From Verrucomicrobiota bacterium (GTDB lineage Bacteria > Verrucomicrobiota > Verrucomicrobiia > Limisphaerales > UBA11358), in NCBI GenBank assembly GCA_021324235.1, contig JAJPJM010000174.1:1-51243 (forward strand): a stretch of 51,243 nucleotides of DNA, in the 5' to 3' direction. This document shows, piece by piece, positions 10,487 to 41,385 of the stretch. The notes beneath the pieces are model-generated. The model searched no databases, had not been told where the DNA came from, and saw only the letters and a program-made list of their open reading frames with translations. The number at the start of each line of letters is the position of its first letter. The stretch's first letter is position 1. A program made the translations under genes and the position numbers.

Positions 10487-11491
10487 ATGAACATGAAACT
10501 GCGTTACCGCCTATTCCTACGCCGCAAAAGCGTTTACTACGCCTTTGACGACACCACCAAAACCTTCACCAGCCTCAAGACCAAGGACAAGGCCGAGGCC
10601 GCGCGCCTGCTTGTCGCCATGAACGAAGCCGGCCACCAACCCGCCATGAATTTGAGTCTCGCCCGCGTCTATCTCCGCCACAGCGACCCGCTGGTGTCCA
10701 CGCGCACCTGGCAGAACGTGCTGGATGAAATCATCGCCATCAAAACCGGCCCGACACAGGCGCGCTGGAAATCCGCCGCCAAGGACAAGGCGTTCGACCT
10801 GATCCGCAGCCGCGTCCTGATTGAAACACAGGGCGAACATTTGCTGGCCGTGTTGCGCACCGGCACGGTTTCGACGAATGCGTTTCTGCGGAAGGTTCAC
10901 AACTTCGCCGTGGACATGAATTGGCTGCCCGCGACGGTCATTCCCCGCCGGCAATGGCCCGCCATCCACTACAAGGAGAAACGCGCCATCACACTTGAGG
11001 AACACCAGAAGATCATCGCCGCCGAGGTCAACCCGGAGCGCAAGACGCTGTATCAGTTGTGCTGGCACTTGGGCGCGAGCCAGGGCGACATCGCGAACTT
11101 GAAGGGCGAGGACGTGGACTGGACCAACGGCACGGTGAGCTTCACCCGCAAAAAGACCGGCGTGCCGGTGCTGGTCCACTTGGGCGGCGAGGCGCTGAAT
11201 CTGTTCAAAGATTTGCCCAGCGAAGGTGCATTGTTCCCGTATCTGTCGCGTGTGCGGGCGAACGACCGGGCGACGGAATTTAGATCACGTTGCCGGCAGC
11301 TTGGCCTTAACGGCGTCACATTGCACAGCTACCGCTACGCTTGGGCGGAACGAGCCAAGACCGTCGGCTATCCCGAACGGTTCGCACAGGAGGCTTTGGG
11401 CCACAACAGCAAGGCGGTACATCGCGCTTACGCCAAACGCGCCTTGATGAAAATTCCGTCGTTGGAAGAATATGAGCAAAAGCCAAGGTGA
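10487..11491 (+). CDS. Tyrosine-recombinase-like integrase lacking the first catalytic Arg
   Basis: The 334-residue protein has the two-domain layout of phage-type integrases: an N-terminal SAM-like core-binding region to about residue 150, then a catalytic domain. Conserved residues are Lys222/223 of the beta-hairpin, His280-x-x-Arg283 (HSYR), His306 in LGH and the nucleophile Tyr315 (HRAY). The motif that normally carries Arg I (G-L-R-x-S-E-I) reads G-A-S-Q-G-D-I at residues 196-202, so Arg I is absent. I recall similar 'GxSQxDIxxL' proteins as common in Verrucomicrobia and Planctomycetes, so this may be a family trait rather than decay. It lies just after tRNA-Cys, consistent with an integrated element or a resident recombinase. 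No second att copy was noticed in the window. Confidence 0.8.
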   Translation: MNMKLRYRLFLRRKSVYYAFDDTTKTFTSLKTKDKAEAARLLVAMNEAGHQPAMNLSLARVYLRHSDPLVSTRTWQNVLDEIIAIKTGPTQARWKSAAKDKAFDLIRSRVLIETQGEHLLAVLRTGTVSTNAFLRKVHNFAVDMNWLPATVIPRRQWPAIHYKEKRAITLEEHQKIIAAEVNPERKTLYQLCWHLGASQGDIANLKGEDVDWTNGTVSFTRKKTGVPVLVHLGGEALNLFKDLPSEGALFPYLSRVRANDRATEFRSRCRQLGLNGVTLHSYRYAWAERAKTVGYPERFAQEALGHNSKAVHRAYAKRALMKIPSLEEYEQKPR

Positions 11492-18583: not shown

Positions 18584-21169
18584 TTAGTCACTTCGGTCAG
18601 TCCGGATGGAAACGCTGGCGGCTTTCAAGCCTGCCGACCTGGCAGTGAGCTTAATGGTTCCGGTTTGCCCAGCCTTGGAGCGGACGATGGCAAGGCAAAG
18701 GCCGTTGAAGGCCTTGCGGTCATCGGATGGAAATGAAGTCAAATCCGTCGGATCACCGTTGTCGGTGGCCACGATTTCGCCCGGCCCCGAAATTTCGAAA
18801 TGAATCGCATTGCCGGCGCGGGGCACCATCACGCTGTGCTTGTCTTCAACCGTCAAGGTGACGAAGGACAGATCGCTGCCATCCGCGTGAATTATGTCGC
18901 GGTCTGGCTGCAGGGCGAGTTTCGCAGCCGGGCCGGTGGTTTGCACCATATCGGTCGCCCATTTTTTGCCGCCCTTGTAAGCGACGACCTTGAGTTTGCC
19001 CGGTTCGTATTTGACGTCATTCCAACAAAGGCGGTATTGGTGTGGCTCCTTCTTTCTCAGTCCCAGGGATTGGCCGTTGAGGAACAGCTCGGCTTCGTCG
19101 CCGGAAGTATAAACAAAGACCGGGGTGATCTGGCCGGTGCGATCCGGCCAGTTCCAGCATTGGGGCACGATGTGGGCCATCGGCCAATCGGGTCGCCAGT
19201 GCGCCTGGTACAGATAGAAGCGGTCTTTCTTGAAGCCAGCCAGGTCCACAATTCCGAAGTAGGAACTGCGCGACGGGTCATTGGGCCCATCGTAGGGGGT
19301 CGGTTCGCCGAGGTAATCGAACCCCGTCCACACGAATTCTCCCGCGACGAACGGATTTTCATCCTGGCCTTTGAATTCGGTGTCGGGAATCGTTGCCCAA
19401 TACGGCGCGGAAAGGTCGTAGGAGCTCATCTGGAAGCCCGACTTGCCATCATTCTTGTTGGTGTTGACCGGATAAAAGTATTCACCGCGAGAGCTGATGC
19501 AGGAGGCGGTCTCACTGCCAAAGATCGGCAGGCGGGGATTGGCCGCGTGCACCCGCGCGTATTCGAAGGGTTTGTAATTATAGCCAAAAACATCCATGTT
19601 CGTTTGAAAGCCGTCGAACCCGGACGCAATGTGATCGCACGCGGCGGTGGTTGGACGCGTCGGGTCTTCCTGATGTGCAATGCGGGTCAACCCGGCCGCA
19701 ATCCCGGGTCCGGCCGGCGTTCCCTGGTCCGGCACTTCGTTGCCGATGCTCCAGAGAATAACACTGGGATGGTTGCGATCGCGTCTCAATTCCGCGCGCC
19801 AGTCTTTCTCATGCCAGTCGTTGAACAACCGATGATAATCGTTTGGCCGCTTGCCCTGTTCCCAGCAATCAAATGATTCGTCCATCACCAGCATGCCCAG
19901 GCGGTCGCACAAATCGAGCAACTCCGGCGCGGGCGGGTTGTGGCTGGTGCGGATGGCATTGCAGCCCATCTCCTTCAATATTTCGATCTGACGTTCCAAT
20001 GCCCGGGTGTTGATGGCTGTGCCCAGCGCGCCCAGATCGGCGTGGTCGCACACGCCATTGAGGCGAACGTGTTCGCCGTTCAGGAAGAAACCCTGGTCGG
20101 CATCAAATTTGATGGTACGGATGCCGAACGGGGTGGTGTATTGGTCCAGCAATTTGCCGTCCTGTTCAATCGAAGTCACCACCACGTAGCGTTGCGGACG
20201 CTCCAGACTCCAGAGCCGCGGGTTTTTGAGGGTGATTTGCGCTTCAGCGGATTGATTATTTTCGGACGCGATTTGCACGCCGTCGGTGGTGAGGGAAGCC
20301 AGAGGTTTGCCTTGCGCGCCGTCCGCCGTGAGTTCGCAAATCTCGTTTTTTACCGACACGGTGACGGCGGATTTCGAGTCGTTGGCCACGGTGACCTGGA
20401 TTTTTACGGTCGCGGCGGCGGGGCTGACTTCGGGCGTGGTCACATACGTTCCCCAGTGTCCCACATGCACCGGCCCGGTTTTTACGAGCCAGACATGGCG
20501 GTAAATCCCGCCGCCCGGATACCAGCGCGAGGACGCCGGCGGGTTGTCCAGGCGGATGGCGAGGACATTTTCCGCGCCGGCCTTGATATAGGGCGTCAGG
20601 TCGAGTTCCCATGAAGCGTAGCCATAGGGCCAACCACCGACATATTGGCCGTTCAGCCAGACATTCGCATAAGACATGGCACCATCCACGGCGAGATAAA
20701 GGCGGTGGTCCTGGTCGGAGGCGGGAACATTGAAATGCTTGCGATACCAACCGACACCCTCCCACGGCAGCTTGCCGGTTGAGCCGGGAGCCGTCTGCGT
20801 GAAGGGACCTTCGGCACCCCAATCGTGGGGAAGATTCAACTGGCGCCAGCCGTTGTCATTGAAGTCCGGCTGAGTGCAGGTGACGTCACCGCCGGGGTTG
20901 CCTGGCGGGCGCATTACGGGTTTGCCGTCATCCACAAACTCATTGCCGGTGGCCATGACCCAAGGTTTAATGTTGGCATAACTGAGTTCGTTACTCGTGT
21001 CCACCGGATCGCCCTTGATAAAGCGCCAGTCGGAGTCGAAGGCAAGACGCTCGCGAACCGGCGCGGCGGTTGGCGCGGCGGTTGCCCACAGATTCAGGTT
21101 AATGAAAATAGTCACCAGCAGGCGCCACCCGACAATTCGGGACAAATTTAAAGGTGTTATTTTTCTCAT
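18584..21169 (-). CDS. Secreted GH2 beta-galactosidase
   Basis: This glycoside hydrolase family 2 enzyme (861 residues) probably removes terminal beta-galactose from galacto-oligosaccharides. A signal peptide lies at residues 1-32. A jelly-roll sugar-binding domain follows (about 40-230, with 'LPHDWGAEGPF' and 'GVGWYRKHFNVP'), then an Ig-like domain, then the TIM barrel. The barrel has acid/base Glu478 (WSIGNEVPDQ) and nucleophile Glu553 (FGSETAS). C-terminal Ig-like/DUF4982-type and Big-like domains complete it. It is transcribed divergently from the GH53-kinase-regulator operon, and a conserved 20-bp element lies 99 bases upstream of its ATG, pointing towards it. Together with the galactanase it would complete galactan depolymerisation outside the cytoplasm. 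Confidence 0.93.
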   Translation of the reverse strand: MRKITPLNLSRIVGWRLLVTIFINLNLWATAAPTAAPVRERLAFDSDWRFIKGDPVDTSNELSYANIKPWVMATGNEFVDDGKPVMRPPGNPGGDVTCTQPDFNDNGWRQLNLPHDWGAEGPFTQTAPGSTGKLPWEGVGWYRKHFNVPASDQDHRLYLAVDGAMSYANVWLNGQYVGGWPYGYASWELDLTPYIKAGAENVLAIRLDNPPASSRWYPGGGIYRHVWLVKTGPVHVGHWGTYVTTPEVSPAAATVKIQVTVANDSKSAVTVSVKNEICELTADGAQGKPLASLTTDGVQIASENNQSAEAQITLKNPRLWSLERPQRYVVVTSIEQDGKLLDQYTTPFGIRTIKFDADQGFFLNGEHVRLNGVCDHADLGALGTAINTRALERQIEILKEMGCNAIRTSHNPPAPELLDLCDRLGMLVMDESFDCWEQGKRPNDYHRLFNDWHEKDWRAELRRDRNHPSVILWSIGNEVPDQGTPAGPGIAAGLTRIAHQEDPTRPTTAACDHIASGFDGFQTNMDVFGYNYKPFEYARVHAANPRLPIFGSETASCISSRGEYFYPVNTNKNDGKSGFQMSSYDLSAPYWATIPDTEFKGQDENPFVAGEFVWTGFDYLGEPTPYDGPNDPSRSSYFGIVDLAGFKKDRFYLYQAHWRPDWPMAHIVPQCWNWPDRTGQITPVFVYTSGDEAELFLNGQSLGLRKKEPHQYRLCWNDVKYEPGKLKVVAYKGGKKWATDMVQTTGPAAKLALQPDRDIIHADGSDLSFVTLTVEDKHSVMVPRAGNAIHFEISGPGEIVATDNGDPTDLTSFPSDDRKAFNGLCLAIVRSKAGQTGTIKLTARSAGLKAASVSIRTDRSD

Positions 21170-21479
21170 AACTGCAGCATTTCCAGCCGGTTAATTTCAA
21201 ACGAAGGAGTTTCGTTTTGATGACTTCATGATGGCTATTTGACGAATGGCAACCTTTTAAGGAGGTTTTGCCTAGCCTCACAAATGTATGGTTTTGGCGC
21301 TTTGGTCAATTTCCTGGTACAACAATTTCATTTGCGGGTGTAACATCAGCCATATGTCCACACGTTTTCCGGTCCAGCTGCTTCGAGCGTGCCTTGGTTG
21401 CAGTTTCGCACAGCCATCGGGTGCCAATAAAATCTGCAACGATTATTTTTTGCCATCTAGACCCAGCGGAAGATCATCC
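21170..21479. promoter_or_regulatory. Divergent control region between GH2 and GH53 genes
   Basis: This 310-base intergenic region must hold both promoters. It contains copy A of the 20-bp element (21269-21288, minus strand) and, between that and the GH2 start, an imperfect inverted repeat (AACCT...AGGTT). The frame of the GH53 gene is open from 21288, but those 64 extra codons are not signal-peptide-like. A good ribosome site GGAAG lies 7 bases before the ATG at 21480, which decides that start. Confidence 0.6.
21269..21288 (-). promoter_or_regulatory. 20-bp conserved element, copy A
   Basis: On the minus strand this reads TACATTTGTGAGGCTAGGCA, identical to copies B and C. It points to the GH2 gene, whose ATG is 99 bases away. 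If TTGTGA were a -35 box, TTAAAA would sit 17 bases further on as a possible -10; this does not hold well for the other two copies. Confidence 0.7.
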
Positions 21480-22724
21480 ATGGTCTGGTCATTGAACCGC
21501 CTCCGATCCGGCACCTGGACCATGGTGGTTATCAGTTTGTTGCTGGCGGTCCTGCCTGCCGCCCGCGCGACGACTCCAACCAATGCTTCGCCGTTCTATC
21601 TGGGGGCGGACATTTCCACGCTCTCCGAAGTCGACCAGCGGGGCGGAATTTACATGGACGGTGCCGGGCCCGGCGACGCGCTGGCCATTTTTATGAAACA
21701 TGGCTGGACCTGTTTCCGCCTGCGCATTTGGGTGGATCCCACCAATGGCATGAACGGGCTCGCATACACCGTGAAGCTCGCCCGACGCATCAAGGATGCC
21801 GGCGGGACATTCATGCTGGATTTTCATTATTCCGACTGGTGGGCCGATCCGCAGAAACAGAACAAACCCGGCGCGTGGGCCAATGAGGATTTTGATGCCC
21901 TCGTAAAGCAGACCCAAACCTATACCGCGCACGTCATCAAAACGTTGAAGGACGCCGGCGCAACACCGGATTTTGTGCAGATCGGCAACGAGATCACGGG
22001 CGGCATGTTATGGCCCGACGGCCAGGTGAAGGTTCCGCTTTCCACCGTCAAGGTGTTTGGCGGTGATGTGACCGTGATCAAGCCACCCGAACCGTACAAC
22101 GACGTCGAGCAGTGGAACCATCTTATTCGCCTCATCAAGGCCGGGGTCAGTGGCGTTCGCTCGGTCACCACGCCCGGGGACCATGTCCGCATTATCATCC
22201 ACATTGACTGCGGCGGCGACTGGCCGGTTACCCGGTGGTATTTCGATCATCTTGCCCGGGCCGGGGTTGACTATGATATCATCGGTCAAAGCTACTATCC
22301 CAACTGGCACGGCACGCTGGAAAATGTCCGCGACAACCTGTATCATACCATCAAACGTTACCACAAAGACGTGATGATTGTTGAAACCGCATATCCCTCC
22401 CGTGACACGCATCCATTGCCGGCGGCGGCGAAGAATATGATCTGGCCTTTGACGCCCGCGGGTCAGGAACAATTTCTGGCCGACCTCATCAAAACGGTCC
22501 GGGCGGCGCCAGAAGGTCGCGGCATCGGTGTCATGTACTGGCATCCGGAAGCCACTTTGATTCCCGGTGCCACCGGACGCTGGAGCCGGCCGGATGCCAA
22601 TTCCCTTTTTGATGCCAAAGGTTTTCCGCTGCCCGCGATGAACGTATTGGGTGGTCAGCCCGTGCTTCAATCCGCCCGTTCGGACGCGAACCATACGCCG
22701 AAGGCGGATCATACGCTTCCATGA
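21480..22724 (+). CDS. Secreted endo-beta-1,4-galactanase (GH53)
   Basis: GH53 enzymes cut the beta-1,4-galactan side chains of type I arabinogalactan/pectin. The 414-residue product has a signal peptide (residues 15-31, VVISLLLAVLPAARA) followed directly by the (beta/alpha)8 barrel. The barrel shows 'YLGADISTLSEVDQRGG', 'FRLRIWVDP', 'FMLDFHYSDWWADP', acid/base Glu171 in IGNEIT and nucleophile Glu302 in VETAYPS, with 'GVMYWHPEA' at the end. Its stop overlaps the start of the histidine kinase (ATGA at 22721-22724), so enzyme and sensor are translationally coupled, which is unusual. A ribosome site GGAAG is correctly spaced. It is likely the lead gene of the operon GH53-kinase-response regulator. 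Confidence 0.93.
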   Translation: MVWSLNRLRSGTWTMVVISLLLAVLPAARATTPTNASPFYLGADISTLSEVDQRGGIYMDGAGPGDALAIFMKHGWTCFRLRIWVDPTNGMNGLAYTVKLARRIKDAGGTFMLDFHYSDWWADPQKQNKPGAWANEDFDALVKQTQTYTAHVIKTLKDAGATPDFVQIGNEITGGMLWPDGQVKVPLSTVKVFGGDVTVIKPPEPYNDVEQWNHLIRLIKAGVSGVRSVTTPGDHVRIIIHIDCGGDWPVTRWYFDHLARAGVDYDIIGQSYYPNWHGTLENVRDNLYHTIKRYHKDVMIVETAYPSRDTHPLPAAAKNMIWPLTPAGQEQFLADLIKTVRAAPEGRGIGVMYWHPEATLIPGATGRWSRPDANSLFDAKGFPLPAMNVLGGQPVLQSARSDANHTPKADHTLP

Positions 22725-25700
22725 TTGAATCATTGCGCCCTTATCCCGTGCGCGAGCACGGAATATCCGGGACCCGTCTCTGGTGCTTCCAGGCATTTTG
22801 CTGCTGGATGCTAGGCGCCGGATTAGTGGTGCCGGTTGCCGCGTGGGCCAGCGATGAGGTTGCGGTCGCAGCGTCCGTCCCGTTCGTGACCAACATTGCG
22901 CAACTTTCCCGGCTCGGTTCCCAAAATCCGGACGCCGGTTATTTTATTCATCTGGAAGGGGACATTTTGTGGGCGAACCCGGCGCGAGGACAATTTGTTT
23001 TGCAGGATGCATCCGGGGCGGAAGAGTTGGAAATGGATTTGCATGGCCAATCACTGCAACCGGGCCAGCGGGTGTCTTTGGATGGCGAGGGCACCATCAC
23101 CAGCCGCGGCGCGGGATTTCGGCTGGGAGTTCAGGGGCCGGTGGTGGATGACAACGGCGTCCATACGATGATCGAAAAATCCGGCGCAATTTATTTGAAG
23201 GCGGGTTGGCATCCCCTGCGCGTGGATTGGTTCAATGGCGTCGAAAAATATGGGCTGCAAGTGGATTATCAAGGGCCGGCCCTGCCGCGTCAGCGAATTC
23301 CCGATTCAGCCCTTTTTCGCATGCCGCCGGGCACCGCCGGGGCGACCAATGTTGCCGGTGGACTGAATTATGCCTGCTACGCGGTCGACGGGGAAACCTT
23401 GCCTGACTTCAACCAGTTGACGGCCCTCAAAACCGGAATCGTATCCAATTTTGATCTGAGCGTCATGAGCCGCAGCGAACACGTGGGATTACGATTTACC
23501 GGTTATCTTCAAGTACCCCGCGACGGTCTTTATACTTTTTACCTTAAATCGGACGATGGCAGTCAGTTGTTTCTTGGTGAACGGTCGATCCGGATGGAAG
23601 TGGTCGGACAACGACAACTACCGGAACCGCGCCAGACGATCATTGGGCAGACCTTGAGCGAGGAGAGGGATTATCAGCGGGTTGAGGTTGAAGGGAAGGT
23701 AACGTTTGTCAGTGAACATAAAGATGGATGGAATGTGGAGTTAACCACCGAAACCGGTCGCCTGGACGTGGAGGTGGCAGATGGTTCCGGCCTGTCGGCA
23801 GCGCTCTTGTTGAACAGCCGGGTTCAAGTCGTTGGGATTTGTCAGGGCGTTTATGATGCTGATGGGGGGAAAATTGGCGGCACCTTGCTGGTATCGGATC
23901 AGTACGGAATCAAAATCATCGGGGCAAGTGGTCCGACGATAAAAAACCGGGACACCGGGCCTGGAAGGCTGCCCGTGCTCACCACCGCCACTGAAGTTCA
24001 CCAATTGAACCGGGAGGAAGCGCAGCGTGGATATCCCGTAAAAATCCGGGGCGTGGTTACCTGTATTTTTCCGGAGCGCCAGGCCTTCACCATTCAAGAC
24101 GCCACCCGTGGGCTGTATGTGGTTGATTCCTCCGAGAGCCGGTCGGTGCCGCCGCAAATCGGTGAGTATCTGGAGGTCGAGGGCAGGACGGACCCCAGCC
24201 TGTTTGCGCCGATTGTTGACGCGGACCGGGTGAGTGATCTGGGGATGGGACGCATGCCGCAGCCGGTGCGCCCGACTTGGGATCAATTGATGAACGGAAG
24301 CCTGGATGCACAATATGTCGAGCTGCAAGGCATCATTACCACGGTCAACTCGAACGGGGTGACGTTGTTTACGGGCGACGGCCGAATCAAGTTGGAATTG
24401 CGAGTCGCAGAAACAAAAACGGAAGCGCTGAAGACTTATGAAGACGCCGTAGTTCGTGTGCGAGGATGTTTGCTGGCGTCATGGGATTATGTGACGCACC
24501 AGGTAAAAGTAGGCGAGATTCGTGTTTATGGCGCGGAACTATCCGTGGATCAGCCGGCCCCCGAAGATCTGTTTTCAATCCCCTTGAAGACCGTTGCGGA
24601 GCTGCTGCAGTTCAATCCGCAAGCGGGCGTGTTCCAACGGGTAAAAGTTTCCGGGCAGATCATCAGCGCACAAGCCCCGCAATATTACATGATGGATGGC
24701 AACAATGGCCTGCAGTTTATCTTAAAGAAACCCGTGCCGGGGCTGGAAGCCGGCGATCAGGTGGAAGTGGTTGGTTTTCCGGAACTGAGCGGCGCTTCCC
24801 CGCTGTTGCACGAAGCGGTGGCGCGCAAGACCGGTCACGCGGCTCTGCCAAAACCAAGACCGTTGCAATCGAGCAATCTCATCCAAGGGGAGTATGACGC
24901 GACCCGGATCCGGGTGGACGGATTGCTGGTGAATGTGAGGGAAACACCGGTTGGTCTGGCCCTGGAAATGCGAAGTGGCATCCGCACGTTTATGGCTCGA
25001 TTGAATGCCAAAATGGATGCCGTACGCTCGCTGGCTCCCGGCAGCCGTTTGGAACTGATTGGAGTGTACATCGGTGATGGCGGGAACCGGGCCGTGGGGC
25101 AGGACATCACGTCTTTTGAGCTGTTGCTCAACTCTCCCGCGGACATTAAAGTGCTGGCGCGACCGCCTTGGTGGAACCTGGAACGGTTGTTGTTTATCGT
25201 GGGTCTCCTGGTGTGCGTGCTGGCCGCGGCCGCCCTCTGGATTACGCAATTGCATCGACGGGTCGAACAGCGGACGACCGAACTGGGAGCGCAAATCCAG
25301 CAACGTCAGAATGTTGAGCATCAGCGGGCCATGGAACAGGAACGCGCCCGGATTGCCCAGGACCTGCACGATGAACTCGGCTCGGGTATCACGGAAATCG
25401 GCATGTTGGCCGCCCGGGTAAAATTTGCGACCGCTCCCGATGGAAAACGGAACGAATATCTTGAGCAGGTGCGTGAGAAGGCGCGGGAGATGGTCACCGC
25501 CCTGGACGAAATTGTCTGGGCAATGAATCCAAAACATGATTCGCTGGCCTCGCTGGTCAGTTATTTTTGCCTTTATGCAGAGCGTTTCCTGGGTTTGGCG
25601 AACATTGCCTGGAGTCTGGAAGGCATATCCCGGACGTCGGACCACACGGTGGACTCGCGACACCGCCACCAGTTGTTTTTGGCTTTTAAAGAAGCCCTGA

Positions 25701-25942
25701 CCAACGTGGTTCGCCACTCCGGCGCTTCAGAAGTGCGCCTGGGGATTAAGGTGGAGCAGGGACAAGTGTGGCTGACCATCAACGACAACGGCCGCGGGTT
25801 CTCCTCGGAAATTCCGACCGAAGAAATGGACGGCGTGGCGAACATGCGGGCGCGCATCGAAAAATTGGGTGGAAGATTTGAAATAACCAGTCAAGCCGGT
25901 CATGGCACCATTGTCCGGTTCAACATGCCTTTGAGTCCATGA
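22721..25942 (+). CDS. Sensor histidine kinase with PA14 and repeated OB-fold-like sensor domains
   Basis: This 1073-residue kinase pairs with the next gene. After a signal/anchor segment (about 24-45) comes a very large exported sensor of about 770 residues. It has an OB-fold-like domain (about 60-130), a PA14-like domain (about 145-300; 'GLRFTGYLQVPRDGLYTFYLKSDDGSQLFL'), and four to five further OB-fold-like units to about 800. One transmembrane helix (about 822-843) and a coiled linker follow. The HisKA_3 dimerisation domain has phospho-acceptor His883 in 'ARIAQDLHDELGSG', and the HATPase has its N box 'FKEALTNVVRHS' and G1 'NDNGRGF'. It is NarX/DegS-type. PA14 domains bind carbohydrate in many proteins, so a galactan-fragment ligand is a reasonable inference. 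It is overlapped by four bases at both ends. Confidence 0.9.
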   Translation: MIESLRPYPVREHGISGTRLWCFQAFCCWMLGAGLVVPVAAWASDEVAVAASVPFVTNIAQLSRLGSQNPDAGYFIHLEGDILWANPARGQFVLQDASGAEELEMDLHGQSLQPGQRVSLDGEGTITSRGAGFRLGVQGPVVDDNGVHTMIEKSGAIYLKAGWHPLRVDWFNGVEKYGLQVDYQGPALPRQRIPDSALFRMPPGTAGATNVAGGLNYACYAVDGETLPDFNQLTALKTGIVSNFDLSVMSRSEHVGLRFTGYLQVPRDGLYTFYLKSDDGSQLFLGERSIRMEVVGQRQLPEPRQTIIGQTLSEERDYQRVEVEGKVTFVSEHKDGWNVELTTETGRLDVEVADGSGLSAALLLNSRVQVVGICQGVYDADGGKIGGTLLVSDQYGIKIIGASGPTIKNRDTGPGRLPVLTTATEVHQLNREEAQRGYPVKIRGVVTCIFPERQAFTIQDATRGLYVVDSSESRSVPPQIGEYLEVEGRTDPSLFAPIVDADRVSDLGMGRMPQPVRPTWDQLMNGSLDAQYVELQGIITTVNSNGVTLFTGDGRIKLELRVAETKTEALKTYEDAVVRVRGCLLASWDYVTHQVKVGEIRVYGAELSVDQPAPEDLFSIPLKTVAELLQFNPQAGVFQRVKVSGQIISAQAPQYYMMDGNNGLQFILKKPVPGLEAGDQVEVVGFPELSGASPLLHEAVARKTGHAALPKPRPLQSSNLIQGEYDATRIRVDGLLVNVRETPVGLALEMRSGIRTFMARLNAKMDAVRSLAPGSRLELIGVYIGDGGNRAVGQDITSFELLLNSPADIKVLARPPWWNLERLLFIVGLLVCVLAAAALWITQLHRRVEQRTTELGAQIQQRQNVEHQRAMEQERARIAQDLHDELGSGITEIGMLAARVKFATAPDGKRNEYLEQVREKAREMVTALDEIVWAMNPKHDSLASLVSYFCLYAERFLGLANIAWSLEGISRTSDHTVDSRHRHQLFLAFKEALTNVVRHSGASEVRLGIKVEQGQVWLTINDNGRGFSSEIPTEEMDGVANMRARIEKLGGRFEITSQAGHGTIVRFNMPLSP

Positions 25943-26565
25943 CCAAAATTGCCATCGTTGAAGACAACAAGGTAATTCGTGAAAGCCTCACGGAATTCGT
26001 TCATGCGGATCCGGAATGCCGGTGTGTCTGCGCCTGTGCCACCGCGGAGGAAGCCTTGAAAACTTTTCCCAAACACGAGCCGGAGATCGTGCTCATGGAC
26101 ATTCAACTGCCCAACATGTCGGGCATCGATTGTATTGCTCAACTCAAACAGATGCTGCCATCCGTTCAAATCATTATGGTCACGGTTTATGAGGATACCG
26201 ACCGGATTTTCAAGGCACTGCGGATGGGCGCCTGTGGTTATTTGCTGAAACGATGCGCACCCGAAGAGCTGATTTCGGCAATTCGGGAGGTGCGGCAGGG
26301 TGGCGCGCCCATGTCGCGGGAAATCGCCCGGAAGGTCATCGCTTCGTTTCAAGAACCGGCGACCGCGGCCACGGAAGTGGAAGACCTTACGGTTCGCGAG
26401 CGGGAAATCCTGGAGTTGCTGGCCAGCGGTTTCCCCAACAAGGAAATTGCCGACCGCGTCGGGTTGACCGACGGGACCGTACGTTGGCATCTCCGACACG
26501 TATACAACAAGTTGCACGTCCGGTCCCGCACCGAAGCGGCGCTTAAATTTCGTTCAACGAAGTAG
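25939..26565 (+). CDS. NarL/LuxR-type response regulator
   Basis: This 208-residue regulator has an N-terminal receiver domain with phospho-acceptor Asp54 (VLMDIQLPNM), acidic pocket Glu8-Asp9 and the conserved Thr/Lys of 'MVTVYED...GYLLKR'. A C-terminal LuxR-type helix-turn-helix follows at about 145-205 (LTVREREILELLASGFPNKEIADRVGLTDGTVRWHLRHVYNKL). Its start overlaps the kinase stop (ATGA). It is the obvious partner of the kinase, and the most likely protein to bind the 20-bp element found upstream of GH2, the PEP-CTERM gene and the pseudopilin gene. That last point is inference from position only. Confidence 0.93.
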   Translation: MTKIAIVEDNKVIRESLTEFVHADPECRCVCACATAEEALKTFPKHEPEIVLMDIQLPNMSGIDCIAQLKQMLPSVQIIMVTVYEDTDRIFKALRMGACGYLLKRCAPEELISAIREVRQGGAPMSREIARKVIASFQEPATAATEVEDLTVREREILELLASGFPNKEIADRVGLTDGTVRWHLRHVYNKLHVRSRTEAALKFRSTK

Positions 26566-26628
26566 ACTAATCATTGATTTAAAACAGCTTGCACCGTTTT
26601 TCGGATCGGACGGGTCTTCGAAGAACTC

Positions 26629-26648
26629 TACATTTGTGAGGCTAGGCA
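26629..26648 (+). promoter_or_regulatory. 20-bp conserved element, copy B
   Basis: TACATTTGTGAGGCTAGGCA, 56 bases before the ATG of the PEP-CTERM gene. A perfect palindrome TCTTCGAAGA (26615-26624) lies just upstream. Confidence 0.75.
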
Positions 26649-26704
26649 AATTCAGGAATTAGGAGATAATTGAGGTCAAAGCAAAACCCGTAATTCAACT
26701 ATCT

Positions 26705-27472
26705 ATGAAAATTGTTTCTTATGTGACTTCGGCCATTGCTGCGTTAACAATGGCTGTCCTGCCTGCAACAGCTGCCACCTATACAGGCCCTGGCACGGCG
26801 AACGGTGGCGGGGCGAGTGGAGAAGGCATTAGCAGTGTTGTCATCAACAACACCGCGACCGATATCACTTTTACCATCAATTCAAGCGCGGTGCAGAGTC
26901 AGTACGTTCAGTATTTTATTTTGATGCAATACGTTGGCCAGGGTGCCAGCGGAAGCACCGCGCTGCTCAACTCTGCGGGAGCCCTTAACGGGTGGGGCCC
27001 AAGTCTGGGCATCAGTACTGGAGAAAACGCTTTTGCCGCCACTTATAACACCGGCGCCACTCCCGCGTACTATAGTGGTGGCGTTTGGAATCAGGGTTCA
27101 GGAGTGAGCTACACCGCCGGTGGCACGGGATTTACTTTCAATTCCTTTACGCTCTCGTTAAGCAGCCTTGGGTTGAGCGTTGGCCAAAGCTTCTATTTCG
27201 ACGTTGTGTCATCATACCCCAATGGAATCGGGCAATCTGCCTATGGTTCATTGGACAGCATTGGGGGTTATCCTGCGGAGACGGATAATTCCTATACGCC
27301 TTGGCTCGGTTCCAATGCTTATGACGCTGCCACCGACGCCTCCGGTACAACCTTTGGTACGGCTGCAAGCCTGTACACTGTCTCGTCTGTTCCGGAACCG
27401 GCAATCAGCGCGTTGCTCGGGTTGGGTACGCTGCTGATGATCATGCGCCGAAGAACATGCCCGGCCCGCTGA
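26705..27472 (+). CDS. PEP-CTERM exported surface protein
   Basis: This 255-residue protein starts with a signal peptide (cleavage near residue 24, PATAATYTG) and ends with a textbook PEP-CTERM sorting tag. The tag comprises VPEP at residues 230-233, a hydrophobic helix (ISALLGLGTLLMIM) and RRR. The tag is thought to be cleaved by an exosortase (EpsH/XrtA-like), which is not in this window. The middle is a Gly/Ser/Thr-rich, strand-rich domain with no recognised enzyme motif. It is preceded by element B and followed by a strong hairpin, so it is probably a monocistronic, regulated surface protein of the galactan locus. Confidence 0.85.
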   Translation: MKIVSYVTSAIAALTMAVLPATAATYTGPGTANGGGASGEGISSVVINNTATDITFTINSSAVQSQYVQYFILMQYVGQGASGSTALLNSAGALNGWGPSLGISTGENAFAATYNTGATPAYYSGGVWNQGSGVSYTAGGTGFTFNSFTLSLSSLGLSVGQSFYFDVVSSYPNGIGQSAYGSLDSIGGYPAETDNSYTPWLGSNAYDAATDASGTTFGTAASLYTVSSVPEPAISALLGLGTLLMIMRRRTCPAR

Positions 27473-27498
27473 CTTGATTTTTGGTCACTGTGAAGAAA

Positions 27499-27530
27499 AA
27501 AGTGCCGCTTGTGAAAATGAGCGGCACTTT
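27499..27530 (+). terminator. Hairpin downstream of the PEP-CTERM gene
   Basis: A perfect 11-bp inverted repeat AAAGTGCCGCT / AGCGGCACTTT (27499-27509 and 27520-27530) with a 10-base loop, 26 bases after the stop codon. A weak T tract (GGTTTATG) and, further on, a T8 run follow. It probably ends the PEP-CTERM transcript. Confidence 0.75.
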
Positions 27531-27951
27531 GGTTTATGCGGTCATGGGATTTTTTTTTGCACCAAAATTCAGCCCACTTCCCGACCGGGGTGGTATATTG
27601 GTGAAGCGACTCCGGTGCATTTACCATGACCGGCAGGCGGCTTTGCGTAATGTAGAACCAATCAGACCAGGTCGACAGTTGTTGACCCAAAATCACTTAT
27701 GCGGTTTTTCCAGACCGCGCAGAATTCCCACAATTCTCTACATTTGTGAGGCTAGGCAGGGTTGAAAATGCAACTATCATTTAAGCAATCACTAATCGAT
27801 CTATGAAGCAATGTGCATGTTGTCATCCTGACTTTTACCGGTCAGGGTTACTCTGTCGTTCAGCGCCGATTGTGGTTTCCGAAGAATCGAGGGCGACTTT
27901 GGCCCGCTCCACCGGGGGGGCAATGACGTAACGCCAGCCGCCCGATAGAAA
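27531..27951. other. Gene-free leader region upstream of the pseudopilin gene
   Basis: No gene is supported; a short frame that reads through the terminator is not credible. The region contains copy C of the 20-bp element (27739-27758), preceded by a small inverted repeat (AGAATT at 27721-27726, AATTCT at 27732-27737), then about 215 bases of leader before the next gene. Confidence 0.6.
27739..27758 (+). promoter_or_regulatory. 20-bp conserved element, copy C
   Basis: TACATTTGTGAGGCTAGGCA again. The three bases before it (CTC) are also shared with copy B. It lies 217 bases before the pseudopilin ATG. Confidence 0.75.
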
Positions 27952-27975
27952 ATGTACAACCCGGATAATTTATCC

Positions 27976-28851
27976 ATGACTCATTTAAAACCATTGAAAT
28001 TTAAGCCTCGATTACGGTTGGGATTTACGCTGATCGAATTATTGGTGGTGATTGCCATCATTGCCATTTTGGCGGCTATGTTGCTGCCGGCACTGTCCGC
28101 CGCCAAGCTCAGGGCACAGGCCATTCTCTGCACGGCGAATCTCAAGCAGTGGGTGGTGGGCTTTCACCTGTACGCCGGTGACCATAACGACAACATGATG
28201 TTGGGTTGGGGTGATCCCAACGGGATGTGGATGGTGGCTTTGCAACCTTACATGCCCGGAGTTACCAACGGGGTGGGCATGGGGGGGAAACTGTGTTTTT
28301 GCCCGGTGGCGACAAAAGTAAGAAGCGATCTTGGTGGAAACACCTGGACCACCTCGGGAACCACTTTTTTGGCTTGGGGGATCATGGGTCAGGGCGCATA
28401 CAATGTTTCGCTTCCGTGGGGTCGTCCTGGAATGGCCGGCAGCTACGGATGTAACGGTTGGGTAGCCAATCCTGCGAGCGGAACCGTCCCGGCGACTGAT
28501 GCACCAGGATATTGGCGGACATTGACCGGGGCTGGCAAGTACTCGACCAAAACACCCTTGTTTGCTGATTGTGTATGGCCTGGGGCCAATCCACACGCCG
28601 GCGGTATGTACAATTCGTCACCGTCGTTGGATGCACCACCGGCCAATTTGGGTGACTGTCAGGTGGGTGCTGAAATGCCGGCTTTTTGCGTTGTCAGGCA
28701 TCCCGGGAGAAATCCTGTGAATATGGCGTTCGTGGATGGTTCGGCCAGGCCGGTGGGCCTGCGACAGCTTTGGCAGTTGCCTTGGAGCAGAACTTACGAC
28801 CCTTCTCAAGCCGTAAGCAAGTTTTACCCTTGGTTGAACTCCTTCAATTAA
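27976..28851 (+). CDS. Type II/IV pseudopilin-like protein (prepilin N-terminal methylation domain)
   Basis: The 291-residue protein carries the prepilin cleavage/methylation motif [25 protein letters not shown] at residues 16-40 (Gly at -1, Glu at +5). It is followed by the large C-terminal domain common in Verrucomicrobia/Planctomycetes, ending in a His...DG element ([22 protein letters not shown] region). Such proteins are often very numerous in these phyla and are thought to be exported by a type II-like system. It is downstream of element C. An upstream ATG at 27952 is possible; I use 27976 because it gives the usual short basic leader ([16 protein letters not shown]). Confidence 0.85.
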
Positions 28852-33757: not shown

Positions 33758-35236
33758 ATGCCCACCAAGCCCAAAACGCAACCGATCAAGCGACTGCTCA
33801 GCCACTACGAGCCGTCCGGATTTTTCGACGAGATGCTTGATGGCGAGGGACGGATACGCCCGCATTACCGGCAGTTCCAGGAACTGTTTCAGACGCTGAC
33901 CACGCGGGAGTTCGAGCACAAACGCCAGTCGATTGACCTCGCGTTTTTGCGTCAGGGCATCACCTTCAATGTCTATGGCAATTCGGCAGGCGCGGAAAAA
34001 ATTTTCCCCTTCGACCTGCTGCCGCGGGTCATTCCCGCCGGAGAGTGGGAGATGCTTGAACGCGGCCTCGCCCAGCGCATCACGGCGCTGAATTTGTTCC
34101 TGCGCGACATTTATCATGAGCAAAAAATCCTGCGGGATGGCGTCATTCCACCGTCCTACGTCCTCACGGGAAAACATTTCCGGCGCGAGTTCGTGAACTT
34201 CAACGTGCCGAAGGACATTTACATTCACATTTGCGGTACGGATTTAATCCGGGACAACAAGGGCCAATATCTGGTGTTGGAGGACAACGGCCGCTGTCCC
34301 AGCGGCGTCAGTTACGTTCTGGAAAATCGCCGGGCGATGAAGCGGGCCTTTCCCGCCATGTTCGAAGGCATCGGCGTGCAGCCGGTCGAACATTATCCGC
34401 AGGAACTGCTGAAGATGCTGCACCACATCGCGCCCGCCGGGGTGGCGGACCCGACGATTGTTTTGCTCACGCCCGGCGCCTACAACTCGGCCTATTTCGA
34501 GCACACCTATCTGGCGCGGCAGATGGGCATTGAAATTGTCGAGGGCCGCGACCTGGTGGTGCGCGACGCCCGCGTTTTCATGCGTACCACCAAGGGACTC
34601 CAGCCGGTGCACGTCATTTACCGGCGCATTGACGACGATTTCCTCGATCCGACGGTTTTTCGCCGCGATTCCCTGCTGGGCGTGCCGGGCATCGTCCACG
34701 CCTATCGCGCCGGCAATGTGTCGCTCGCCAATTCAATCGGCACCGGCATCGCCGATGACAAGGTGATGTATTACTTCGTGCCGCGCATGATCAAGTATTA
34801 CCTCGACCAGGAGCCGCTGCTGGCCAACGTGCCGACCTATCTGGCCAGCGAAGCGGAAGACCAGAAGTACATCCTTGAAAATCTCGATCAACTGGTGGTG
34901 AAGGCGGCCAATGAATCCGGCGGCTACGGCATGCTGATGGGGCCGAAGGCAACCCGGGCGGAAATCGCCGCGTTCCGGAAAAAAATTGAGGCCGAACCGC
35001 GCAATTACATCGCGCAGCCGATGATTTCACTGTCACGGCATCCGACGTGCGTGGACGACGATAATTATTTTGAGGGCCGGCACATCGACCTGCGGCCCTA
35101 CATTATTTACGGCGAGAAGATCGCCATCGTGCCCGGCGGCCTGACGCGCGTGGCGTTGCGCAAAGGCTCGCTCGTCGTCAACTCGTCGCAGGGCGGCGGC
35201 AGCAAGGACACCTGGGTGCTCTATGGAGATGAGTAG
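33758..35236 (+). CDS. Circularly permuted ATP-grasp protein (DUF404/DUF407 family)
   Basis: This 492-residue protein belongs to the circularly permuted ATP-grasp type 2 family, predicted (Iyer and co-workers) to form amide/peptide-like bonds with ATP. Family marks are '[14 protein letters not shown]' (about 68-82), '[20 protein letters not shown]' (about 172-192), '[12 protein letters not shown]', the nucleotide-loop '[11 protein letters not shown]', '[11 protein letters not shown]' and the terminal '[27 protein letters not shown]'. All appear intact, unlike in the fused paralogue at 44888. It is the first gene of the long plus-strand cluster with alpha-E and transglutaminase-like partners. 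The substrate is unknown. The ATG follows a plain purine stretch. Confidence 0.88.
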
Positions 35237-35239
35237 GAA

Positions 35240-35347
35240 ATTTATGATTTACGATTTACGATTTACGATTTCGGAGGGCGGGTTTGGACCGCTGGCGCAG
35301 GCCGCGGTACGGGCCAAATCATCAATCATCAATCATCAATCATAAAT
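35240..35347. repeat. Heptamer arrays forming a long imperfect inverted repeat at the alpha-E start
   Basis: The left arm (35240-35271) is three GATTTAC units with flanks; the right arm (35316-35347) is three AATCATC units with flanks. The reverse complement of the left arm matches the right arm at 26 of 32 positions, with a 44-base GC-rich loop between. The right arm runs into the ATG of the alpha-E gene, and no Shine-Dalgarno is visible there. Confidence 0.85.
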
Positions 35348-36389
35348 GCTTTCGCGGGTTGCCAATTCGCTTTACTGGATGTCGCGTTATATCGAACGCG
35401 CCGAAAACATCGCGCGCATCGTGGATGTGAATTTGCAGATGCTGCTGGATCTTCGGAACCTGGATGAAGAGCGTCTGGCGCAACATTGGCTGCCGATCGT
35501 CGAGACGACCGGCGACGAGACACAATTTTTTCAGCTTCACAAAAAGGCCACCGGCCAGGCCGTCACGGAATTTCTCGTGTTTCAAACGGAGAACCCCAAT
35601 TCCCTCGTTTCCGCCATCTGCCAGGCGCGCGAAAATGCCCGCATGATCCGCGACCAGATTACGATTGAGTTCTGGGAGGAATTGAACCGGCTTTACTGGT
35701 TCGTGAAGACGCCGGAAGCGCGGCGGATTTGGAAGGAAAGCCCCAGCGAGTTCTTCCAGCAGGTCAAAAACAGCTCGTTACACCTGATTGGCCTCGGTTA
35801 CGCGACGCTGCTGCGCAACGAAGGCTGGTGGTTTGTACAGATCGGAAAATTCTTGGAACGCGCCGACAAAACGTCGCGCATTCTCGACTTGCGTTCGGGG
35901 GCATTGCCGGAGAAGGGCGCGCCGGAGGCGGCCGGCCAGCCCGAAGCGTTGGAGTGGTCGGCCATCCTGCATTCCTGCAGCGCCTGGGACGCCTACAAAA
36001 CGTTGCACGGCGCGGAGGTGCATCCGCGCGGCGTTGTGGAATTTCTTTTGTTCAACGACGATTTTCCAAGGTCGGCGCGCTTTTGCGTCGGCCAGTTGAA
36101 CCACGCATTGCGCCGCATCTCCGGCGTGCCGGACGGCCGCTTTTGCAATGATGCCGAGAAACTGGCCGGGCGGCTGGTCGCGGAATTGCAGTTCAGCACC
36201 GTGGATGAAATTTTTGGTCGGGGCCTGCATCTTTACCTCGATCAATTGCAGTCCAAGCTCAATGACATCGGTGCGGCGCTGTTCGACGCCTACATTTTCC
36301 AACAGTTCAACAATCTGGAGGACGAAATCATGGTTCAACAGGAGGAGCAACAACAACAGTCCCGAACCATTCGCAAAACCCATTTATGA
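35346..36389 (+). CDS. Alpha-E domain protein (DUF403)
   Basis: This is an all-helical 347-residue protein of the alpha-E family, found almost always next to circularly permuted ATP-grasp and transglutaminase-like genes. The family start 'MLSRVANSLYWMSRYIERAENIARIVDVN' is exact, with the conserved 'W..RY.ERAEN.AR' pattern. 'CQARENARMIRDQIT' and 'GWWFVQIGKFLERADKTSRILDL' follow. Its biochemical role is unknown; it is presumed to assist the ATP-grasp partner. Its stop overlaps the phosphofructokinase start (ATGA at 36386-36389). The start lies inside the heptamer hairpin, which could dampen its translation. Confidence 0.88.
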   Translation: MLSRVANSLYWMSRYIERAENIARIVDVNLQMLLDLRNLDEERLAQHWLPIVETTGDETQFFQLHKKATGQAVTEFLVFQTENPNSLVSAICQARENARMIRDQITIEFWEELNRLYWFVKTPEARRIWKESPSEFFQQVKNSSLHLIGLGYATLLRNEGWWFVQIGKFLERADKTSRILDLRSGALPEKGAPEAAGQPEALEWSAILHSCSAWDAYKTLHGAEVHPRGVVEFLLFNDDFPRSARFCVGQLNHALRRISGVPDGRFCNDAEKLAGRLVAELQFSTVDEIFGRGLHLYLDQLQSKLNDIGAALFDAYIFQQFNNLEDEIMVQQEEQQQQSRTIRKTHL

Positions 36390-37780
36390 AACGCATCGGC
36401 ATCCTGACCGCCGGCGGCGACACGCCCGCCCTGAACGCCACCATTCACGGCGCGGTGGTGCGCGCGAACCAGCTCAAGGTCGAAATCGTCGGCCTCATCA
36501 AGGGATTCAACTGCCTGTTCAACCCGCGCGTGCCGCACGTTCACCTTAACCCGCTGTTTCAGGAAATTCCCGAGCTCGATCCCACCAAAGGCGGCACGCT
36601 CATCGGTTCGTCCCGGGATTATGTCGATCCCGACAATAAAAATGACCTCGACCTGGTCGAATCGCGGTTGAAAAAGCTCGGGATCGAGGGGCTGATCTGT
36701 ATTGGTGGCGACGGCACGCTCAACGGCCTGCAACCGCTGGCCGAGCGCCTGCCCGCCGTGCTGGCCCCCAAGACCATTGATAACGACCTGGGTTTGAATT
36801 ATCCCAGCGAACCGGACGAGTGGGTGCGGGTGAACGATGCCGCGGCCAAACGTGGTTATCGTTACAAGCAGGTTCCGGCCACCGAAACCTTCGATCTCGA
36901 CCACATCGTTAATTATGCCACGCCCGGCTATACGACGGCGGTTTATGTGTCCGCGGGTGGCGTGGAGCGCATCCGCACGACGGCCGAAAGCCACCGGCGC
37001 ATCGCCATCATCGAAGTCATGGGCCGCCATTCCGGTTACATTGCGCTCGGCACGGCCTACGGCCAGCCGGACATCATTCTCATTCCGGAACATCCGCTCG
37101 ACCTCGAACATCTCGTCCACCGCGTCAAACATATTTACGACCTCCAGAAAAACGTCGTCATTGTCTGCGGCGAAGGCATCGTGGACGAGCAGGGCCGGGA
37201 ACTGGGCGCGGAAACGAAATCCACCGACCCTTCCGGCAACGTCGTGCTCAGCGGCGCGGCGGACGCGCTGCGCAACAAGCTGGTCCAGATGATCGGCGAC
37301 CGCTATTTCCAGCTGTATCGCCGTGGTGAATCGGCCAAGGAGGCGATCTTCACGCGCAAAGTCGGCCATACACAGCGGGGCGGGCGGCCGATCCTGTTCG
37401 ACCGGTTTTACGCCGGCTTGCTCGGCGCCAGGGCGGTGGACCTGTTGCTGGAAGGCCGCAACAACGCCGTCTCCGTTCTGCAATACAGCACGGACAAGGG
37501 TTTTCACGTTGAGGGCTACGACGCGAACCGCTTCCGCGATCGCTGGGGGCTCATTCATGCGCGCAAGCTGCATCCGGCGCTGTACGACGCGAAATTGATG
37601 AAACCGTCCCGGCTGGGCATTGATTATTTGCTGCCGATCTTCACCGACGCCATCGGCAACGACGACGCCGAGCACATGCGCTCGACCCTGTTCGATCCCG
37701 GCAACCTCGCGCAGCCCTATCACTCGATGAATACAGATGTCCACAAGCGCATCCGCTATCTGGAAACGGAGGCCGCGTGA
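36386..37780 (+). CDS. 6-phosphofructokinase, probably pyrophosphate-dependent type
   Basis: This PFKA-superfamily enzyme of 464 residues phosphorylates fructose-6-phosphate. Motifs are 'GILTAGGDTPALNATI' at the N-terminus, GGDGT at residues 107-111, PKTIDND at 128-134, 'IEVMGRHSGYIAL' and 'CGEGI'. Lysine in PKTIDND is the mark of PPi-using enzymes (ATP enzymes have Gly there), whereas the Gly of GGDGT is the ATP-type residue. The mixed pair is known in some PFK clades, so the donor is not certain. Translational coupling to the next gene (GTGA overlap), a probable PPi-type PEP carboxykinase, favours PPi. It is unexpectedly embedded between peptide-ligase-like genes. Confidence 0.82.
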   Translation: MKRIGILTAGGDTPALNATIHGAVVRANQLKVEIVGLIKGFNCLFNPRVPHVHLNPLFQEIPELDPTKGGTLIGSSRDYVDPDNKNDLDLVESRLKKLGIEGLICIGGDGTLNGLQPLAERLPAVLAPKTIDNDLGLNYPSEPDEWVRVNDAAAKRGYRYKQVPATETFDLDHIVNYATPGYTTAVYVSAGGVERIRTTAESHRRIAIIEVMGRHSGYIALGTAYGQPDIILIPEHPLDLEHLVHRVKHIYDLQKNVVIVCGEGIVDEQGRELGAETKSTDPSGNVVLSGAADALRNKLVQMIGDRYFQLYRRGESAKEAIFTRKVGHTQRGGRPILFDRFYAGLLGARAVDLLLEGRNNAVSVLQYSTDKGFHVEGYDANRFRDRWGLIHARKLHPALYDAKLMKPSRLGIDYLLPIFTDAIGNDDAEHMRSTLFDPGNLAQPYHSMNTDVHKRIRYLETEAA

Positions 37781-41175: not shown

Positions 41176-41358
41176 ATACGAATGAAAGACAAACCAACAA
41201 ACCTTGCCCGCATGAATAACGGCGTGCGAGCCCTGGCCCCGTTTGGTGTTCGTCAGGAGTGGGCGCAGGAAATACTTGGCCCGTTGTCGTTTTGCGCTCT
41301 GAAGCGGCATGAACGCCGTTTGCTGAGTCCGCGGTTCGCAACGTCCCTGCGCTCGTCG

Positions 41359-41372
41359 ATCGTAAATCGTAA
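41359..41372. repeat. Two ATCGTAA heptamers before the transglutaminase-DUF2126 gene
   Basis: Two tandem 7-bp units end 13 bases before the ATG at 41386. The 210-base gap 41176-41385 holds nothing else convincing; a 65-codon frame in it is not supported by any motif. Confidence 0.7.
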
Positions 41373-41385
41373 GTTGTAGATTCGA

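Follow-up and report, generated by a model that had tools for sequence, protein, structure and literature searches.

A repeated 20-base element in the genome of an uncultured verrucomicrobium is very probably the operator together with the -35 region of promoters that are controlled by a two-component system encoded at the same locus. On the comparisons presented here it is most likely the docking site of the neighbouring response regulator, which would act with the core promoter to switch on genes of a galactan-degrading locus. This reading has its basis in the repeat itself, a dyad within it, the spacing of this dyad to a -10-like hexamer, conservation in other genomes, co-occurrence with the regulator and paired changes in both dyad arms. 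The sequence-only reading of this DNA had offered the operator of the co-located regulator or a promoter element as alternatives. The evidence appears to favour both, as the dyad tracks the regulator and is fused to a -35-like hexamer with a near-constant -10.

The locus and its repeated element

The element TACATTTGTGAGGCTAGGCA occurs exactly at 21269-21288 (minus strand), 26629-26648 (plus strand) and 27739-27758 (plus strand) of the window, by which we mean the whole 51,243-nucleotide stretch that was analysed (GenBank GCA_021324235.1, contig JAJPJM010000174.1). Each of these copies, named A, B and C below, points towards its adjacent gene. Copy A lies 99 bases from the ATG of the GH2 gene, copy B 56 bases from that of the PEP-CTERM gene, and copy C 217 bases from the ATG at 27976 of the pseudopilin-like gene or 193 bases from an in-frame ATG at 27952. 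Copies, positions, strands, directions and distances agreed with those reported from the sequence alone, and 100 dinucleotide shuffles yielded 0 matches at up to 3 mismatches. Alignment of the copies also bore out two further claims of that reading: between copies B and C the match extends to 23 bases (CTC plus the 20-mer; each matches copy A at 21/23), and the surrounding sequence is unconserved, with a flank identity of just 18-39% (50 bases above and 70 below). In the whole genome of the organism (3.09 Mb, 185 contigs, 90.9% complete) these were the only three copies at up to 3 mismatches, and a reversed control pattern gave 0 matches. The genome search that had been proposed as a check thus found three copies at one locus and not a dispersed element.

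Genes and copies are arranged in the order GH2, copy A, GH53, kinase, regulator, copy B, PEP-CTERM protein, copy C, pseudopilin-like protein, an Ig-domain protein and a second GH53 (Table 1). Copy A sits between the divergent GH53 and GH2 genes and is directed at GH2. The label "galactan" for the locus is suggested by the two GH53 genes and the GH2 gene. The regulator combines a receiver with a GerE/LuxR HTH domain and is therefore of the NarL/FixJ type; its recognition helix TVRWHLRHV comprises residues 180-188 and its best PDB match was NarL (1a04, E 7e-35). It is not a NarL orthologue, scoring 157.2 bits with NF007935 against an equivalog cut-off of 250.

Table 1. Genes and proposed promoter elements, in window coordinates.
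Feature	Position	Strand	Evidence and remarks
Sigma-70 region 2/4 protein, 532 aa	11558-13156	-	Mechanical ORF; ECF-like with long C-terminal extension
GH2 glycoside hydrolase	18584..21169	-	Pfam; proposed target of copy A
Copy A, weak -10-like TGCCAT	21246-21251	-	17-bp spacer; 3/6 matches
Copy A, -35-like TAGGCA	21269..21274	-	Alignment
Copy A, dyad CCATACA-TT-TGTGAGG	21276..21291	-	Proposed response regulator operator towards GH2; sequence, aligned with 21 other sites
GH53 endo-galactanase-type gene, divergent from GH2	21288..22724	+	Pfam; mechanical ORF start, GH53 domain from residue 104
Sensor histidine kinase (PA14, HisKA_3, HATPase_c)	22721..25942	+	Pfam; 4-base overlap with the regulator gene; proposed partner
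NarL/FixJ-type response regulator (receiver + GerE/LuxR HTH)	25939..26565	+	Pfam Response_reg PF00072 and GerE PF00196 above cut-offs; proposed binder
Copy B, dyad CTCTACA-TT-TGTGAGG	26626..26641	+	Proposed operator towards PEP-CTERM gene; alignment
Copy B, -35-like TAGGCA	26643..26648	+	Alignment
Copy B, -10-like GATAAT	26665..26670	+	16-bp spacer
PEP-CTERM protein	26705..27472	+	TIGR02595 20.7 bits, cut-off 16; no Pfam match; proposed target of copy B
Copy C, dyad CTCTACA-TT-TGTGAGG	27736..27751	+	Proposed operator towards pseudopilin gene; alignment
Copy C, -35-like TAGGCA	27753..27758	+	Alignment
Copy C, -10-like TATCAT	27775..27780	+	16-bp spacer
Pseudopilin-like protein (N_methyl)	27952..28851	+	PF07963; TIGR02532 on 27976-28851; proposed target of copy C

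Anatomy of the proposed promoter module

The 20-bp unit described earlier was rightly seen as a discrete signal and was misjudged in its size, the real unit being about 23-26 bp plus a -10. The 20-mer belongs to a larger module, in which a 16-bp imperfect dyad CYNYACA-TT-TGTGAGG is followed by a single C, the -35-like hexamer TAGGCA and, 16-17 bp on, a -10-like hexamer. The logo of group 1, made from 22 aligned sites (20 at up to 3 mismatches plus two of genome G084), consisted of an A-rich stretch, C[CT][AC][CT]ACA, TT, TGTGAGG, C, T[AG]GGCA and AA, after which conservation was low until the T-rich -10 positions. The left of the two inverted arms is degenerate and the right, promoter-proximal arm (TGTGAGG) almost invariant, which is why a non-palindromic 20-mer was seen at first. 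The module has the 7-2-7 form of two inverted heptamers with a 2-bp gap; left-arm symmetry is just 4-5/7 in the window copies and perfect in versions found with paralogous regulators.

Over 27 sites the best match to TATAAT was found at offsets 16/17 after the motif (mean 3.78/6), while other offset pairs in the same sites gave 3.07/6 at the overlapping 17/18 and 1.4-2.9 elsewhere. Taking the -10 hexamer at -12 to -7, the dyad is centred near -43.5/-44.5. The layout is class II-like, as the site adjoins the -35 at a fixed distance to the -10. TAGGCA agrees at 4/6 positions with TTGACA, the textbook -35, and such a weak match would be expected of an activator-dependent promoter.

Small palindromes had also been noted just before copies B and C, for example TCTTCGAAGA before copy B. 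When the 32 bases upstream of the sites were compared by eye with L077 and L078, the two orthologous loci nearest to the window's, none was seen at the same place. We therefore rejected them as a component of the signal and regard them as probably due to chance.

Co-occurrence of element and regulator across genomes

Of the 49 genomes from the organism's family, eight contain the 20-mer with no more than 3 mismatches. The eight best orthologues of the regulator (77-100% identity) sit in exactly these eight genomes, with the next regulator at 73%. Such a perfect agreement of the two sets would arise by chance with a probability of 1 in C(49,8), or about 2e-9 (calculated by hand and with kinship ignored). 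Among 320 genomes of the order, 11 had a site at up to 2 mismatches, and in 10 of them a regulator of at least 75% identity was encoded. The sole exception was G067, a 96% complete genome of another family, in which no regulator above 50% identity was found; this might be an orphan site, a case of a missed regulator or a recent transfer of the target gene. The G067 site (L089; G067:C80, ~2797, minus strand) has 1 mismatch and precedes a GH2 gene that shares 69% identity with that of the window.

Regulators of at least 75% identity were present in 14/320 genomes of the order, and 11 of these genomes contain the element with no more than 3 mismatches. G084, which encodes the regulator, has two sites with 4-5 mismatches. 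G148 and G149 (orthologues at 80% and 82%) showed no site at up to 3 mismatches genome-wide and none above background in the 19.0 and 12.8 kb of sequence analysed. In the order search the reversed control also matches 41/320 genomes (hand count), so that hits with 3 mismatches alone were regarded as background. Twelve genomes with solely such matches and without a close regulator were left out of the evidence; two of these were inspected, one with no regulator in the stretch (L092) and one with a regulator at 47% (L094). The exact 19-mer (the 20-mer minus its first base) was further found in six stretches on five public MAG contigs, from Limisphaerales or Verrucomicrobia where named. These assemblies (G009, G013, G016, G019 and G239) overlap with the family and order counts and are not independent of them.

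A regulator of at least 65% identity was encoded in 13/17 site-bearing loci among L077-L094. Of the 20 group-1 sites with no more than 3 mismatches, 19 have a same-strand ORF start at most 250 bases away (mechanical starts), and the twentieth site runs off its contig. Target genes of the relatives' sites were assigned by tblastn with the window proteins. GH2 genes were targets in the window, L077, L078, L079 and L089, PEP-CTERM-like genes in the window, L077, L078, L080 and, weakly (27-32%), in L090 and L093, pseudopilin genes in the window, L077, L078, L080 and L084, and a GH53 gene in L080; the targets in L081 and L091 had no window counterpart at the site. The orthologous loci L077 and L078 thus carry the element at the same three genes as the window. 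Conservation upstream of GH2, GH53 and PEP-CTERM genes in relatives, which the sequence-only reading had named as a check, was found and included pseudopilin genes too.

Paired arm changes at paralogous regulators

Paralogues of the regulator at 71-73% identity have the helix VRWHLENIY in place of VRWHLRHVY. Directly behind two of these (L082, L086) we found CCTGACA-TT-TGTCAGG and CCTGACA-TT-CGTCAGG, in which the fourth base and its partner are changed jointly. The locus of a 65% regulator (L087) has two sites, CCGGACA-TT-TGTCCGG and CCGGCCA-TT-TGTCCGG, in which the change extends to the third base and its partner. This joint change of both arms matches the prediction for recognition by a symmetric dimer. 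Three further sites were assigned to the paralogue group by sequence alone, namely L081 15898 and L082 12209, which are of the same G006 region, and L088, on a 4.9-kb contig without a regulator gene. The L082 12209 site (CCCTCCA-TT-TGACAGG) is asymmetric at the fourth base. CTAGGCA follows the dyad in 7/7 paralogue-group sites. Behind the third 71-73% regulator (L085) no site was found in the 418 bases before the contig end. A search of the 49 genomes for the two paralogue dyads found a regulator within 1.5 kb in 5/15 and 6/12 loci, each with the expected helix, and is mostly circular, since all these regulator genes but one (G013) were in the set that defined the dyads; it was given no weight.

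Geometry and specificity in the wider regulator family

We analyzed the regions behind 128 regulators, comprising 114 of the 150 listed rows of a family search, three of other families and 11 further ones. The regulators were picked by similarity, not randomly, and 127 of the regions have at least 120 bases downstream. Dyads of 16 bp with a 2-bp centre were enriched (71/127 versus 39.8 in shuffles). Those with a 4-bp centre were equally enriched (71/127 versus 40.4), and those with 5-7 bp mildly (53-56 versus 40-42). Combinations of a dyad (at least 6/7) with a -10 (at least 4/6) peaked at distances of 22 bp (12 versus 1.7 shuffled) and 23 bp (21 versus 1.0; n=127). With one row per distinct helix and groups 1 and 2 removed, the counts were 5/81 (22 bp) and 12/81 (23 bp) versus 0.6 and 0.9. 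The peak was unchanged (12 and 21 of 124) when the count was repeated without L143 and L148 (wrong strand) and L136 (interrupted). These counts indicate that the dyad-to--10 geometry of the regulator family is real. Most related regulators miss the strict rule of dyad plus -10 within the 250 bases searched.

The dyads vary between clades, for example CTAGCCG-CT-CGGCTAG with VK(W/F)HLQHIY, TCACCAG-AA-CTGGCGA with VHTHIRHIY, and TCGGATG-AA-CATCCGA with VRTHISAVY. By an automatic rule a regulator-operator pair was obtained for 41/127 regulators; the automatic choice missed a recognisable site for L081 and L101, which were kept in the counts. Helix positions were mapped to NarL numbering through alignment with 1a04. 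The contact residues of NarL were taken to be K188, V189 and K192. Where the NarL-189 position is W or F, the outermost dyad base was C in 18/19 pairs; with another residue there it was T in 19/22, kinship included in both counts. TAGGCA followed the same division, with a mean of 3.3/6 in the 19 pairs with W/F helices versus 0.95/6 in the other 22. As it is absent from regulators without W/F in the helix, it was rejected as a constant -35 of the whole family, and because it goes with these residues it may be contacted by the regulator instead of sigma. The partial Mantel correlation of helix and operator given receiver distance was 0.20 (reached by 8/2000 permutations), suggesting a weak correlation beyond kinship. 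The partial correlation of receiver and operator was larger (0.41), and the code is therefore tied to clade.

The heptamer consensus of NarL is TACYYMT. Seven regulators with the helix VRVHLRRI, which is near NarL's TVKVHVKH, are followed by TAC(C/T)(C/T)CA-AT-TGAGGTA, matching the NarL consensus at 12/14; these seven rows represent three sets with nearly the same helix. Means were 4-7 for regulators with other residues. Scores of at least 12 were reached by 10/126 regulators, i.e. the seven and three others (12-13 somewhere downstream). This scoring missed a recognisable site for L077, L081 and L082, which were kept in the counts. For L134, which has the NarL-like helix VKVHLKHI, the prediction failed, as its best NarL-like dyad scored 10/14, the commonest value (61/126). 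Recognisable group-1 sites scored 4-5/14 against the same consensus and are thus not of the NarL sequence type.

A second regulator in the own genome has the dyad TAACCAG-AA-CTGGTGA 183 bases on (G000:C52:13325-13341; L196, L230). This dyad has a single exact copy in the genome, with 5 looser matches versus 10 for the control.

We see an even chance that the order multiplied one NarL-type system so that a genome contains many insulated versions of it, each next to a 16-bp dyad of its own in a fixed position upstream of the -10 and with dyad base pairs readable from a few helix residues. If so, regulons of uncultured genomes would be predictable from the regulator sequence alone.

Proposed mechanism and alternative explanations

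In the proposed mechanism, the kinase, presumably placed as the sensor of a signal that might be galactan fragments, would phosphorylate the NarL-type regulator, a dimer of which would bind the 16-bp dyad. Bound near -43.5/-44.5, it would recruit RNA polymerase for transcription of the GH2, PEP-CTERM and pseudopilin genes, and of GH53 in one relative. According to the portions of PMC7419079 that describe them, Escherichia coli ogt has a NarL 7-2-7 site centred at -44.5 that abuts the -35, and for yeaR one 7-2-7 site immediately upstream of the -35 is enough. By analogy, the layout that the window promoters share with ogt and yeaR suggests activation by the phosphorylated regulator. An ogt version with the -44.5 site alone was not coupled to nitrate, and its authors favour contact of NarL with the alpha C-terminal domain, on the opposite DNA face, over contact with sigma (same portions of PMC7419079); "class II-like" therefore denotes a position here and not a proven contact. 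Points against the mechanism are the orphan site of G067, the regulators of G148 and G149 without a recognisable site, the failure at L134, a helix-operator link that is hard to separate from kinship, the poor GH2 -10 (3/6), the limited symmetry of the left arm and the many regulators that miss the strict rule.

The regulator might instead bind as a repressor, with an operator adjoining the -35 hindering polymerase. Between the site and the -35-like hexamer there is a single base, and NarL represses some promoters, e.g. frdA, in the part of PMC4549865 concerned with it. We consider repression unlikely, as the dyad lies upstream of the -35, in contrast to frdA, where the site spans the -10 or start. 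A site centred near -44 activates at ogt (PMC7419079, in the portions cited), and the 4/6 match of TAGGCA to TTGACA would be expected of an activator-dependent promoter. Less probable still, and in our view very unlikely, is a promoter of an alternative (ECF-type) sigma factor in which the conserved block would be the -35 and no activator would be needed. At a distance of about 8 kb there is a gene for a sigma factor that has regions 2 and 4, and the block does end in a -35-like hexamer at a near-fixed distance to the -10. This protein, one of 18 window queries, had no match among those listed in 21 loci, whereas the regulator was present at 65% identity or more in 13/17. Symmetric arm changes and dyads varying with regulator clade suit a dimeric HTH regulator, and a -35 of 20 bp would be unusually long; the sigma reading is thus disfavoured.

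That 20 bases are identical in three places could also point to a mobile or dispersed repeat or to an RNA leader element, to which we assign hardly any probability. The three copies of the genome lie at one locus, all before secreted-type or hydrolase genes, and a dispersed repeat was rejected as even a tolerance of 3 mismatches reveals no further copy. The element is moreover conserved in orthologous loci of other genera, the flanks of the three window copies are unrelated, and it would not be transcribed, since the -10 lies downstream of it.

Relation to known systems

With the NarL operators of ogt and yeaR, as far as PMC7419079 covers them, the promoters proposed here share a NarL/FixJ-type regulator and a 16-bp inverted repeat with a 2-bp centre directly upstream of a poor -35. 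They differ in the arm, which is CYNYACA and not TACYYMT, in the C-TAGGCA that follows the dyad, and in the proposed local regulon of sugar hydrolase, PEP-CTERM protein and pseudopilin, in place of the nitrate-responsive genes of NarL. An engineered NarL site, TACCCCTAAAGGGGTA, given in an excerpt of PMC4549865, has the same form as the dyads of the VRVHLRRI clade. A conserved site before PEP-CTERM genes that tracks a kinase/regulator pair phylogenetically is also described for PrsK/PrsR of Proteobacteria in the relevant part of PMC1569441. Unlike PrsR, which is sigma-54 NtrC-like and has a -24/-12 motif according to that part, the regulator of the window is NarL-type and its promoters show -35/-10 geometry. 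By Pfam it has no sigma-54 interaction domain, and the hexamers GATAAT and TATCAT are found instead.

The open-access PubMed Central literature searched yielded no publication that deals with this element or with the operators of these Verrucomicrobia regulators. The individual parts belong to known kinds; the sequence of the operator, the gene set and the clade-wide regulator-operator series did not appear in the literature searched. The proposal names a regulator, an operator and a gene set for the galactan locus of an uncultured verrucomicrobium, and would tie PEP-CTERM and pseudopilin surface proteins to glycan use through shared control. Together, the paralogous regulators and the differing operators that match them make up a natural series that provides data on how NarL-type helices choose DNA, and informs on the insulation of duplicated two-component systems and on regulon prediction in a phylum where genetic work is scarce.

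In Bacteroidota, polysaccharide utilisation loci are regulated locally by hybrid two-component or ECF systems. The window locus resembles them in encoding a sensor and regulator inside the glycan locus under their proposed control, and differs from them in its separate kinase and NarL-type regulator and in the short dyad by the -35. SusC/SusD had no Pfam match among the 25 window proteins scanned, a subset of the window's genes. Elsewhere in the window, a run of genes at 33758-47500 encodes a circularly permuted ATP-grasp protein, an Alpha-E protein, a phosphofructokinase-like protein, a 1132-aa protein without Pfam match and DUF2126/transglutaminase proteins, and is probably a separate cluster of the amidoligase type. 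A Phage-integrase family protein is encoded at 10487-11491.
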